DNA from: Sporomusa termitida
GTDB lineage: Bacteria > Bacillota > Negativicutes > Sporomusales > Sporomusaceae
Assembly: GCF_007641255.1 (NCBI RefSeq)
Contig: NZ_CP036259.1
Span: 4,652,501 to 4,716,500 of the forward strand
Direction of reading: 5' to 3'
Length of the DNA stretch: 64,000 bases
The notes beneath the pieces were generated by a model. The model searched no databases, was not told the DNA's origin, and saw nothing but the letters and a program-made list of their open reading frames with translations. The translations under genes and the position numbers were made by a program. Positions 11,170 to 36,505 of the stretch are shown here, piece after piece (position 1 is the first letter of the stretch; every line of letters begins with the position of its first letter).

Positions 11170-11637
11170 TTATCTGCCAAATTTGCCGGTCATATGGATA
11201 ATTTCTATTTTATAAACACTAACCGCTTTAATCGCCCTGTCGATATAGGCCTGTCCCTGCGCTTGATAATTGCCGGAGTATTTCTCTATTAATAATACCA
11301 GCGCCTTTCTTTTCTCCTGTTCATCAGTGACTGCCGCTGCCCGGCCATAGATTATCGCGCAGTCATATTCTGTATCAAATTTCTCCGGCAGTAATTTATA
11401 ATAGTTAACCGCTGAAAAACTAACCTTACTATTTTTTTTAATAGCGTCAATTTTATAACCGTCCCGGGCTGAGTGAAAATAGATCGTCCTGTCGCTATAA
11501 ACATAATTTAACGGCACAGAATAGGGATAGCCATTTTCCCCCATACAGGCCAAGGTCCCATAATCAGCTTCCTTTAAAATTGTGACAGTTTCCGCCTGGG
11601 ACATAAGTTTTTCTTTACGCCGCATCTCCCTGAACAT
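11170..11637 (-). CDS. NimA-like flavin (pyridoxamine 5'-phosphate oxidase family) protein
   Basis: 155 residues, starting MFREMRRKEK as is common in this family. The split-barrel fold is shown by GTLACMGENGYPYSVPLNYVY, IYFHSARDGYKIDAIKKN and the closing IIHMTGKFG. Members bind FMN and include nitroimidazole-resistance (NimA) reductases; most are of unknown substrate. Cytoplasmic. A GAGGAAGG site lies about 12 bases before the ATG. It is preceded by a 335-base untranslated stretch that may contain a structured RNA (11882-11972) with its own promoter on the same strand. Confidence 0.88.
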   Translation of the reverse strand: MFREMRRKEKLMSQAETVTILKEADYGTLACMGENGYPYSVPLNYVYSDRTIYFHSARDGYKIDAIKKNSKVSFSAVNYYKLLPEKFDTEYDCAIIYGRAAAVTDEQEKRKALVLLIEKYSGNYQAQGQAYIDRAIKAVSVYKIEIIHMTGKFGR

Positions 11638-11881
11638 GACAACAGCCGCCTTCCTCGCAAAGTCGAAATTACTCTCTCTATATTTCCATCAGTCTATAAA
11701 ATATCTCCCGGGTCAGTATCTATTTTTGCACCGCGCCAGTTCTTGTCAGCCCCGGCTTATAGCATATTTCCCGGACAGGGGCCCGGGCCCCGTCCTTTCC
11801 GGAAAAATCCCCGGCCGGCCAGTTGATCTTACTTGCAATTCACCGCAAACAGGCTATAATTAGAAATAGGTGGAAATTAAA

Positions 11882-11972
11882 GTCGCCGTGACCTGAAAGT
11901 GTTAGCGCACTTCCAGGCCCGCGCAAGGTGAAAACAGCACCTACACGTAACAGTCAAGCTGTCCACGACGAT
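11882..11972 (-). ncRNA. Possible structured RNA or leader, three-way junction
   Basis: About 90 bases, minus strand, starting seven to eight bases after a TATAAT box (11984-11979). The 5' GTCGTGGAC (11970-11962) can pair with GGTCACGGCGAC at the 3' end (11893-11882). Inside are AGGTG-N7-CACCT (11942-11926) and CCTGGAAGTG-N6-CACTTTCAGG (11917-11892), the last a 10-bp stem with a G-U pair on the minus strand that would be an A-C mismatch on the plus strand. That favours minus-strand RNA. I do not recognise a known riboswitch class and see no T-run terminator, so it may be a leader of the NimA-like gene. Confidence 0.4.
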
Positions 11973-11978
11973 ATTTTT

Positions 11979-12008
11979 ATTATACACCCGTCTTTCGCCG
12001 CAAGACAA
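11979..12008 (-). promoter_or_regulatory. Sigma-A-like promoter of the possible RNA/NimA-like gene
   Basis: On the minus strand TTGTCT (12008-12003) and a perfect TATAAT (11984-11979) are 18 bp apart. Transcription would start near 11972 and read toward the NimA-like gene. Confidence 0.55.
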
Positions 12009-12302
12009 GCGGGGCGCGGGGATAAAAGATATTGCCGCCGGCGCCGGGCTGTGAGTGCGACTTAGACGCAGCAAAGCATTCCCTCTCCTCACGCCTGCCA
12101 TTGTCAGCAGCAGGGTAACATTGCCCTGCCGGTTTGACCGCCTTGCTGACCGGGACCGGCTAGGTCCGGCTTATTGGGGTTGGGGATTTAGCAAGCATCG
12201 CAGCCAAGCGCATGTGTAGACCAACGACCTCGCATGCGCTTTAATTTCCCCCTGTAAACAGCTGGCGCCTTCTGCTCCAGCCTTAGTATAGGGGGTATAT
12301 AT
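12009..12302. other. Non-coding region with a long-loop hairpin
   Basis: No gene seen. It holds a 9-bp inverted repeat AAGCGCATG (12206-12214)/CATGCGCTT (12233-12241) with an 18-base loop followed by TAATTT, which could be a weak plus-strand terminator, and the upstream region of the small gene at 12303. Confidence 0.5.
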
Positions 12303-12644
12303 GTGTTTGATGAAAATGGAACCCGGGTTGGGCTAAGAGAGACGTTAAACCAGGCTTTTGATCAGTATGTCTTTATCAGGGTTGACCATATCCTCAACCT
12401 GGCCGGCACGAAGGACGCCGGCTACAGCAAGACGGCCCGGGAAGTCAGTGCCGCCCTCGACCGGCTGCTGGCGTTGGCCCGGGCCCTGAAAACCCAGCAG
12501 CCGGAAATGACCGGTCTGGTCATGGATTTTGAGGCTTTGACAGCGCTGGAGTCCGGACAGGCGGCCGAGATTGCCTACAGGCAGGGACTAAGGGACAGCA
12601 GCCGCCTGCGGCAGGAATTTATGACCCTCCTGCAGCAGCAGTAG
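12303..12644 (+). CDS. Small helical protein, DUF6809-like
   Basis: 113 residues, GTG start at 12303 with an AGGGGG site seven bases upstream. It is soluble and helical with no signal peptide, no membrane helix and no Cys. The order (N-terminal segment, a helix rich in Leu/Ala, then EIAYRQGLRDSSRLRQEFM near the end) resembles the small DUF6809 proteins that carry a closing GF-x-G-A-R-L motif, but the match is weak. Function unknown. It stands alone, facing the CsoR operon, with a GC-rich hairpin (12656-12677) just after the stop. Confidence 0.6.
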   Translation: MFDENGTRVGLRETLNQAFDQYVFIRVDHILNLAGTKDAGYSKTAREVSAALDRLLALARALKTQQPEMTGLVMDFEALTALESGQAAEIAYRQGLRDSSRLRQEFMTLLQQQ

Positions 12645-12973: not shown

Positions 12974-13249
12974 CTAACGAATATAATGGTTAAGCGCCGC
13001 CTGCAGCTTACCCATGAATTCCTCATGTTCACCTTCATTGACGGCGTGAACCAGACAATGCTCCAGATGATCCTTCAGGATAAGCTTGGCTGTATTATCA
13101 AGCGCCTTGCGGATAGCGGCAATCTGCAGCAAAACCTCCGGACAGTCACGGCCTTCGGCCACCATTTGCTTAACGGCCCGGGTATGGCCCTCTATGCGGG
13201 CCAGCCTGTTTACTACCTGCTTCTGATGTGTGTGTACATGGCTATCCAC
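12974..13249 (-). CDS. csoR: CsoR-family copper-sensing repressor
   Basis: 91 residues, all helical DUF156 fold. Cys36 (GRDCPEVL), His61 and Cys65 (KDHLEHC) stand at exactly the spacing of the Cu(I)-binding Cys-His-Cys of CsoR, rather than the His-rich set of RcnR. The N-terminus adds HVHTH. It is a cytoplasmic tetrameric repressor that leaves DNA when it binds Cu(I). Its own promoter contains a GC-rich palindrome (13272-13290) as expected for CsoR autoregulation. The small membrane protein follows in the operon; no copper ATPase or chaperone is in view. Confidence 0.88.
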   Translation of the reverse strand: MDSHVHTHQKQVVNRLARIEGHTRAVKQMVAEGRDCPEVLLQIAAIRKALDNTAKLILKDHLEHCLVHAVNEGEHEEFMGKLQAALNHYIR

Positions 13250-21885: not shown

Positions 21886-21977
21886 AGTAGTCGCCTCCTA
21901 TTTTTAGTCGACTCACCCGAATCAGGGCGCTGGGGACAGCTAGCGATAAGTGCTGTCAATAAACTGGCTAACTGTCT

Positions 21978-22117
21978 CATCCTCTTTCATCCGGACTATA
22001 CCGTCGGCTCTGGCTTCTCACCAGATCTGCTGACCTCCTTAAACAAGGAGCGCTCGCGGGCTCCCCAGCTGCCTGGGATACCGCCGGTGGGGACTTGCAC
22101 CCCGCCCTGAGAATAAG
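21978..22117 (-). promoter_or_regulatory. FMN riboswitch (RFN element)
   Basis: On the minus strand the conserved blocks appear in order: TCAGGGCGGGGTGCAAGTCC, CACCGGCGGTA, AGCCCGCGAGCG, GGTCAGCAGATCTGGTGAGA, AGCCAGAGCCGACGGTATAG and TCCGGATGAAAGAGGA. This is a full RFN element. No T-run terminator follows. The ribB ribosome site (21894-21898) lies between AGTCG (21913-21909) and CGACT (21893-21889) that can pair, so translational control is plausible. Confidence 0.95.
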
Positions 22118-22126
22118 TCTGACTAT

Positions 22127-33758: not shown

Positions 33759-33939
33759 TTATGCAGATCCCAAAAGCCTGCCGAAATCAACTGCCAGCAG
33801 ACTGTTGTTTTCCCTTAGTACTATTTTTTAAAAAAAGTTACAATTTATTCTTGACAAACACCGATATCCATGCAACAATGTAACAAGTTATTCGTCTGCA
33901 GGCGTATACTATCAAGTAATTTACATTGATTAAAAATGA

Positions 33940-34187
33940 TGATTGGGCAATATGCAAACATATCTCGCTTTCAGAGAACCGGTGGCTGGTGAAAACCGGT
34001 GCAGATATTTGCTAAACTCACCCAGGAATTCTTTTGCTGAAACTAAGCGAAAACCTTAGGTAGGCTAAAGCGTTTATCTGCGTTAAAGAAATCAGCCCAT
34101 ATACAATGGCTGAGTAATGAGCCTAAGTTAGGGTGGTACCGCGATAACATCGCCCCTATTGACGTTAATGTCAATAGGGGCTTTTTT
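33940..34187 (+). promoter_or_regulatory. T-box leader, probable leucine specifier (CUC)
   Basis: Stem I starts near 33940 (TTGGG ... CCCA); the AGAGA-type loop and GGTGGCTGGTG apex motif are present. The specifier loop (about 34012-34019) reads TAAACTCA just before the CCCA strand; CTC followed by A fits a Leu codon. The antiterminator core AGGGTGGTACCGCG is at 34130-34143, with TGGT able to pair tRNA ending ACCA (Leu has A73). Terminator: 12-bp stem 34152-34163/34170-34181 then six T. A TTGACA at 33851-33856 may be the -35. Uncharged tRNA-Leu would turn on the transporter gene. Confidence 0.88.
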
Positions 34188-36320: not shown

Positions 36321-36429
36321 ATATTGTCCCTCCTCCAATTGCTACTTCAAGCATAATGTGGAAGTGTGACAAAAGAATGACAAAATATAAAAAGCCTCCC
36401 GACAAATGCCGAAAAGCCTTATTTTCTGG

Positions 36430-36505
36430 TGCGCCCGGGAGGACTCGAACCACCGGCTGACGCGGTTTAGGAAACCACCGCTCTATCCACCTGAGCTACG
36501 GGCGC
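36430..36505 (-). tRNA. tRNA-Arg (anticodon CCU)
   Basis: Full cloverleaf on the minus strand: acceptor GCGCCCG/CGGGCGC, D arm AGCTCAGGTGGATAGAGC, anticodon arm GGTTTCCTAAACC, T arm GGTTCGAGTCC, and encoded CCA (36429-36427). The anticodon loop is where the integrative element joins, so the 5' half (36466-36505) is element-supplied. Promoter at 36683-36711; a GU-rich hairpin with TTTTT (36411-36390) lies downstream. Confidence 0.97.

Follow-up and report, generated by a model that had tools for sequence, protein, structure and literature searches.

Among the known type I toxins is SymE of Escherichia coli; Kawano, Aravind and Storz (2007) suggested that SymE genes swap protein regulators for small RNAs (PMC1891008, cited from part of its text). 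In the cited part of PMC4147584, SymR is described as overlapping the symE ribosome binding site and start codon. The cassette described here, from Sporomusa termitida, is similar in that a small cis-encoded antisense RNA is predicted opposite the mRNA of a small protein, and a SymE-type gene is the best match at 12 of 92 cassette loci. However, its antisense region (11868-11972) is some 330 bases upstream of the start codon (12303; Shine-Dalgarno, or SD, region 12288-12295), where all coordinates refer to the window, the whole 64,000-nucleotide stretch of DNA that was analysed. In addition, most cassette loci carry other genes, and the symR family (RF01809) reaches only 16.6 bits against a cut-off of 61 (E 2.4), on the sense strand. 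Membership of the window copy in SymE/SymR was rejected because its gene is not SymE, its RNA is not symR and its start site is left uncovered.

Two other type I systems are also similar in layout. According to the cited part of PMC4147584, the antitoxin RNAs of TisB/IstR-1 and Zor/Orz pair at a distance from the translation start, within a long 5' UTR, the tisB ribosome binding site is held in structure, and the antitoxin gene is not directly opposite its target, complementarity being short (21 nt for IstR-1). TisB is described there as a hydrophobic peptide of 29 residues, whereas the window protein has 113. In contrast to both systems, the antisense RNA of the cassette lies wholly opposite the leader, and the 5' end of the mRNA itself would compete for the anti-SD sequence. 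In plasmid control of the pT181 type, an antisense RNA acts against an mRNA leader with a downstream terminator-like hairpin. The cassette shares the folded antisense RNA against a leader and, in 88 of 92 loci, a terminator-like hairpin. Unlike pT181-type control, it is chromosomal and multicopy, no replication gene is seen, and its competing pairing is on the SD side, in the tail after the stem and not in the terminator stem. Finally, a type I toxin mRNA of H. pylori has metastable folds (PMC6733600, cited from part of its text); it is a different element, and the likeness lies in the idea that folding order decides translation. No description of the cassette was found in the open-licence literature, among the titles and abstract beginnings of the matches listed.

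Altogether, we consider it rather probable that this stretch represents a copy of a modular translation switch under antisense-RNA control, one that resembles a type I toxin-antitoxin leader in its working but is no SymR homologue. The parts of the window copy are the following:

11833-11860, plus strand: sense promoter TTGCAA-N16-TATAAT from the promoter scan; best site at least 9/12 in 82 of 90 loci.
11865-11882, plus strand: start of the sense leader, AATAGGTGGAAATTAAAG, which faces the 3' end of the antisense RNA and is a near-complement of the tail at 12238-12256.
11868-11972, minus strand: predicted antisense RNA, a closing stem and three hairpins followed by terminator-like UUUAAUUUCC; inferred start and end.
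11882-11970, minus strand: folded core of the antisense RNA, from folding z and covariation; the hairpin loops vary among paralogues.
12008-11979, minus strand: antisense promoter TTGTCT-N18-TATAAT from the promoter scan; best site at least 9/12 in 90 of 90 loci.
12009-12205, plus strand: conserved part of the sense leader in the own-genome alignment, with blocks such as GGGCTGTGAGTGCGAC..ACGCAGCA and CCGGCTTATTGG.
12206-12241, plus strand: terminator-like hairpin AAGCGCATGTGTAG..CGCATGCGCTT, then TTTAATTT; z -3.40 for 12195-12260.
12238-12256, plus strand: tail GCTTTAATTTCCCCCTGTA, predicted to pair with the mRNA 5' end or, via CCCCCTGTA, with the SD.
12288-12295, plus strand: SD region ATAGGGGG, which a predicted hairpin with the tail would sequester.
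12303-12644, plus strand: cassette gene, an open reading frame with start GTG for a 113-residue protein of no Pfam family.

The sense leader measures about 440 nt and the predicted antisense RNA about 100 nt. By position, the latter is fully complementary to the first 110 nt or so of the leader, and its promoter sits inside the leader. A putative antisense RNA gene lies opposite the 5' end of the leader, with promoter-like sites on both strands, which is the arrangement expected of a type I system as far as sequence alone can tell. A promoter scan of 751 bases returned three promoter-like sites, against 0.4 expected from shuffles. An earlier note on this DNA had proposed the minus-strand promoter, which is indeed present at the position given; it had missed that the plus strand has a promoter scoring just as high, followed by a conserved leader and gene (11865-12644), and that the stretch is multicopy and dispersed.

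The cassette is repeated in its own genome and recurs in others. When 60 genomes were searched at the DNA level, 23 had the stretch, among them the own genome, where at least 14 copies were scored; a unique leader is thus ruled out. A covariance model built from 43 copies recovered 25 own-genome copies, of which 24 score at least 107.7 bits and one, a decayed copy, 59.2; six extra rows of up to 34.4 bits were mirror matches over the same places. The window protein likewise has 25 matches at 24 places in this genome, its own included. The covariance search across the class, which the earlier note had called for, located the element in 30 of 300 sampled genomes, own included (16 of 227 among the better assemblies). 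In a sample of 299 genomes from the phylum, only the own genome and one weak match (43.7 bits, without the leader hairpin) appeared, and we take that match for chance. In the family around a Desulfosporosinus, 14 of 45 genomes carry the element. When named genomes were scanned with the exact pattern, 54 stretches turned up, from Sporomusa, Pelosinus, Propionispira, Propionispora, Anaerospora, Lucifera, Massilibacillus and Desulfosporosinus, together with a Megamonas bin and other Sporomusaceae or Selenomonadales bins.

The repeated unit is a module. All 14 own-genome copies compared can be aligned from the promoter region through the antisense element and the leader into the gene region, with the exception that an intron interrupts the sense promoter of one copy (L037). 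They keep the same order of parts: the plus promoter comes first, then the folded element and the minus promoter, about 200 bases of leader, a hairpin with T-run, a C-rich tail, the SD (GGGGG) and the gene. Collapsing 118 loci by identity of the element plus 60 bases left 92 non-redundant ones, and a script found the leader hairpin, T-run and tail in 88 of these. The other four are L094, with a variant tail and the hairpin present; L095, with Ns; L118, at a contig end; and L082, which has no hairpin and is a probable chance hit. In three own-genome copies (G000:C1:917324-917643, 4130171-4130332 and 1164570-1164734), the genes are seemingly frame-shifted, shortened or broken by stops; the RNA part scores fully at two of them and is decayed at the third.

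Promoter conservation was counted in 90 loci, with L091 and L113 left out for their short flanks. The sense promoter is poor (7-8/12) in eight, three of which are split by a group II intron. On the minus strand, TTGT at -35 and TATAAT at -10 with a spacing of 17 or 18 occur in at least 82 of 90 loci; ATTATA was required in trimming the first loci and forms part of the model, so the conservation of this -10 box is partly by construction, while the -35 box lies outside the search model. The introns occupy the same cassette base in all three loci, L037 in the own genome and L117 and L137 in Pelosinus fermentans. Their site, TAATT^ATA, is just past the U-run of the antisense RNA and falls within the -10 box of the sense promoter. 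The intron spans about 2133-2865 in L037 and starts at about 3574 in L117, where a second group II intron is apparently nested within the first; both junctions were read in these two loci and only the 5' junction in L137. Some group II introns prefer terminators. The site here is 26 bases from the stem, a greater distance than is usual for the terminator-preferring class, and we put no weight on this link.

The 5' end of the mRNA and the tail of the leader are central to the proposed switch. In most copies the predicted mRNA 5' end is AATAGGTGGAAATTAAAAAG. This sequence is complementary to the 3' end of the antisense RNA and near-complementary to the leader tail CTTTTTAATTTCCCCCTAT. Over 88 loci, the duplex of 5' end and tail has a mean energy of -21.0 kcal/mol when both come from one locus and -19.2 when they come from different loci, a difference matched by 0 of 5000 permutations. 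Moreover, the length of the A-run in the 5' end tracks that of the T-run in the tail (Spearman 0.73, n=84; own-genome copies 0.77, n=15). The tail's CCCCCTAT can also pair with AUAGGGGG at the SD, and the two change together, as in CCTCCTGTAA with TTACAGGAGG and CTCCCAT with ATGGGGG. Since the tail matches both the mRNA 5' end and the SD, it has two possible partners. MAFFT alignments gave little or no consensus here, as indels spoil it: two of eight pairs with two-sided change in the leader hairpin (75 sequences) and zero consensus pairs in the SD hairpin (78 sequences). For this reason, duplex energies were used to test the SD pairing; they average -13.3 kcal/mol within loci and -12.3 between (0 of 5000 permutations; 81 loci). 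These permutation tests ignore kinship, and related loci are not independent. The tail tests leave out L082, L094, L095 and L118, the run-length test also L029, L036, L037 and L081, and the before-SD folding test also L091; loci with no recognised SD are left out of the SD tests (80 loci in the equilibrium fold, 81 in the duplex test).

Folding was predicted for cut and for full-length transcripts. In transcripts cut just before the SD, the predicted probability of pairing between 5' end and tail averages 0.81 and exceeds 0.5 in 86 of 87 loci, against 0.31 and 13 of 87 once the 5' end is shuffled. The window copy has a value of 0.77, whereas its 20 shuffles average 0.28 and do not exceed 0.61. 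At equilibrium, full leaders of 80 loci have on average an SD open at 0.13, SD:anti-SD pairing at 0.71 and 5' end:tail pairing at 0.19. With the 5' element blocked, as an antisense RNA would do, the predicted open SD falls from 0.13 to 0.04 and SD:anti-SD pairing rises from 0.71 to 0.91. No SD:tail pairing is predicted in four of the 80 loci (L010, L021, L120 and L135). Most SDs being already closed at equilibrium without the antisense RNA speaks against the switch. In the window copy the SD is open at 0.00 in both states, with no predicted change; the switch, if real, must therefore be kinetic and depend on folding order.

Such a switch could work as follows. One strand would give the leader of about 440 nt, which starts at the predicted AATAGGTGG and ends in the gene at 12303-12644, and the opposite strand would give a folded RNA of about 100 nt from the promoter within the leader. 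In the ON state, the 5' end of the new mRNA would pair with the tail before the SD exists, thereby freeing the SD from CCCCC so that ribosomes can start. In the OFF state, the antisense RNA would occupy the 5' end and the tail would close the SD hairpin; the hairpin at 12206-12241 may also terminate transcription, and the duplex may be cut. The sequence itself shows both promoters, the antisense fold with its covariation, the leader hairpin and the SD hairpin. It likewise shows a 5' end nearly complementary to the SD-pairing tail, and the joining of the cassette to different genes.

A different weight could be given to the leader hairpin. If 12206-12241 is a terminator, the cassette would act by antisense-controlled transcription attenuation of the pT181 type, and the SD pairing would be secondary. 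This reading accounts for the hairpin and T-run found by script in 88 of 92 leaders and seen also in L094, and it suits a long leader with an antisense RNA at its 5' end. However, the partner of the 5' end is found at and beyond the T-run. Because the tail is made after the termination decision, its pairing with the 5' end cannot be a classical antiterminator. The hairpin was also not listed by a simple terminator scan. We regard attenuation as an unlikely main mode of control.

Another point is which strand gives the folded RNA. The earlier note had proposed a fold of about 90 bases behind the minus promoter, and this stands: the stretch 11868-11984 folds on the minus strand with z -4.83, better than all 200 shuffles, and on the plus strand with z -2.40, with three of 200 shuffles as good. 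The junction had been drawn as three-way, whereas the actual fold, with its closing stem and three hairpins, is a four-way junction. Over 43 copies the minus fold has 30 consensus pairs, with 99.5% of 1290 cells paired. These copies remain from 51 first loci after nine rows were dropped (seven duplicates of other fetches; L008, a near-copy of L006; and L016, which has no 5' end), and the window row was taken from its own coordinates. The covariation that the earlier note had asked for was found in this alignment. Nine of the 30 pairs show two-sided change. Shuffled alignments give 2.8 such pairs, with none of 500 reaching nine, and sliding the fold gives no more than three. Four of five covariation measures beat 500 of 500 shuffles and the fifth beats 499. 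Pair 78-97 illustrates the pattern, with GU in 21 copies, AU in nine, GC in nine and UA in three.

Being the complement of a folded strand, the plus strand also has a consensus fold. One could suppose that the functional RNA is the structured 5' leader in its mirror fold, and that the minus promoter is accidental. The plus fold beats its shuffles at the z already given, 97.8% of the cells of its own consensus are paired, six pairs show two-sided change, and the sense promoter is conserved. Against this, the G-U pairs of the minus strand, a feature rightly claimed in the earlier note, become A-C on the plus strand: among 1290 cells the minus strand has 134 G-U cells and seven mismatches, the mirrored plus strand 137 mismatches. 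As 86 of the 134 G-U cells belong to two invariant pairs, the informative comparison is about 51 mismatches with seven. The further pair types of the plus strand are within the range of shuffles (413 of 500 as high), and at least 82 of 90 loci retain the minus -35 TTGT, a box outside the model. A functional plus-strand fold with an accidental minus promoter is in our view improbable. A U-run follows the minus fold, CUUUUUAAUUUCC in many copies and CGGCGAC-UUUAAUUUCC in the window copy. Covariation, strand asymmetry and this U-run lead us to favour the minus strand as the folded RNA.

This RNA seems to be new, as the earlier note had supposed when it spoke of an undescribed structured RNA. An Rfam 15 scan of the stretch gave no family above its gathering threshold, and a permissive search gave only three matches, with E from 2.4 to 9.9, the plus-strand symR hit among them. 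Known riboswitches and RNA families were thus rejected as its identity. Elsewhere in the window, Rfam gathering scores or ARAGORN place an FMN riboswitch at 21975-22118 (minus), a T-box leader at 33930-34160 (plus) and a tRNA-Arg(CCT) at 36427-36505 (minus). The hairpin loops are the most variable part of the element, with an identity of 0.53 in P3, 0.67 in P4 and 0.73 in P2, compared with 0.96 for paired columns and 0.92 for other unpaired columns. Among the own-genome rows of alignment A1, 15 of 15 P3 loops are distinct, as expected if the loops are addresses, and there are 11 distinct P4 loops. With such paralogue-specific loops, each antisense RNA would select its own mRNA.

A repeat of this kind could also be mobile or selfish DNA, the 5' end and the tail being terminal inverted repeats of a small, non-autonomous, gene-carrying element. 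The two do form near-perfect inverted repeats, about 25 copies lie in one genome in both orientations, and the spread is patchy over Negativicutes and Desulfosporosinus. But conservation extends beyond both supposed ends, into the promoter and the SD hairpin, and strand-specific covariation is not needed for a DNA repeat. Viral contigs (scanned with the exact pattern), plasmids and phages gave no matches at the settings used, on which ground a phage, plasmid or viral origin was also rejected. Mobile DNA thus appears a very improbable account of the cassette as a whole. Finally, the view, following the earlier note, that the element is a cis-regulatory leader of the minus-strand NimA-like gene, metabolite-sensing or other, for which the orientation is suitable and a promoter exists, can practically be dismissed, since the fold is followed by a U-run about 235 bases short of that gene's start, tblastn found NimA relatives at none of 67 other element-bearing loci (with flanks of varying length), and elsewhere the element keeps company with the opposite-strand gene. 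The NimA-like protein itself (11170-11637, minus) has the pyridoxamine-oxidase fold and scores 157.6 bits with the NimABCDEF model; the cut-off being 260, it is a relative and not a certified resistance gene. Another gene of the window, at 12974-13249 (minus), is for a metal-sensing repressor of the CsoR/RcnR kind (PF02583, 91.2 bits).

The translation switch, as we read it, is joined to several kinds of genes. Taking the best seed match within 1500 bases, in any sense-strand reading frame and thus beyond the frame directly behind the SD, the 92 loci comprise 25 of the window type, 18 DUF6809-like, three DUF6809, 12 SymE, nine of the MYRTYR type, five with a 55-residue Desulfosporosinus protein, four of the HYNKGF type, three with an ACT/PAS sigma-54 activator and 13 with none, seven of the latter having less than 500 bases of downstream sequence. 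The names MYRTYR, HYNKGF and window type were coined in this analysis. SymE toxins, DUF6809 proteins and the sigma-54 regulator are certainly unrelated to one another; the MYRTYR, window and other types belong to no family. All three SymE-type proteins scanned match SymE_toxin (PF08845) at 43.5-45.4 bits against a cut-off of 29, and one scanned with the NCBIfam SymE model gave 23.2 bits where 132 are needed. One SymE-type copy (L086) is in the window's own genome. With the Pfam DUF6809 model (cut-off 27), one protein (L120) scores 85.8 bits and four related ones 19.0 to 25.6. In two Sporomusa genomes (G007 and G001), 14 of 17 fetched copies precede a protein start MN(I/S)..ETELY.. that leads, where translated, to about 60 residues of no family; the proposal that this protein is Spo0E-like found no support in family scans. 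At L111, L136 and L091, in Sporomusa acidovorans and a Megamonas bin, the cassette stands ahead of the gene for the ACT-PAS-sigma-54 activator, whose family name rests on Pfam and which we take to be TyrR-like.

As the products include relatives of the SymE toxin, some copies of the cassette are probably type I toxin-antitoxin loci. However, the sigma-54 regulator of three loci does not look toxin-like, the window protein has no family, and its profile link to the DUF6809-like proteins is weak. The window protein matches no Pfam family and does not belong to the SymE family. Assignment to DUF6809 was rejected, as no Pfam score reaches 27 and the profile comparison gives a probability of 36.7% with E 0.00036. 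Its AlphaFold2 model (mean pLDDT 64.5, all helix) is too weak for a fold search. Models of anti-phage defence match neither the window protein nor the SymE-type protein, and a DUF6809-like protein has one weak partial match (DpdH, 13.7 bits). To call the window copy toxic would be a guess.

A broader picture can be offered tentatively: a plug-in cassette in which one conserved antisense/leader switch has been copied to about 25 places of a single chromosome and, in different species, combined with several gene types, the diverged loops insulating each antisense RNA from the others. If so, these bacteria would hold a naturally evolved set of RNA switches insulated from one another, and in each of them the 5' end of the mRNA and an antisense RNA would contest control of the SD. 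One RNA switch design would be reused many times per genome for unrelated genes, with the loops as addresses, and the avoidance of cross-talk among paralogous antisense RNAs would become testable within one organism. Such a family would also be a source of possibly orthogonal expression switches. For Sporomusa, Pelosinus, Desulfosporosinus and their relatives, it would represent a regulatory system for SymE and DUF6809 genes.
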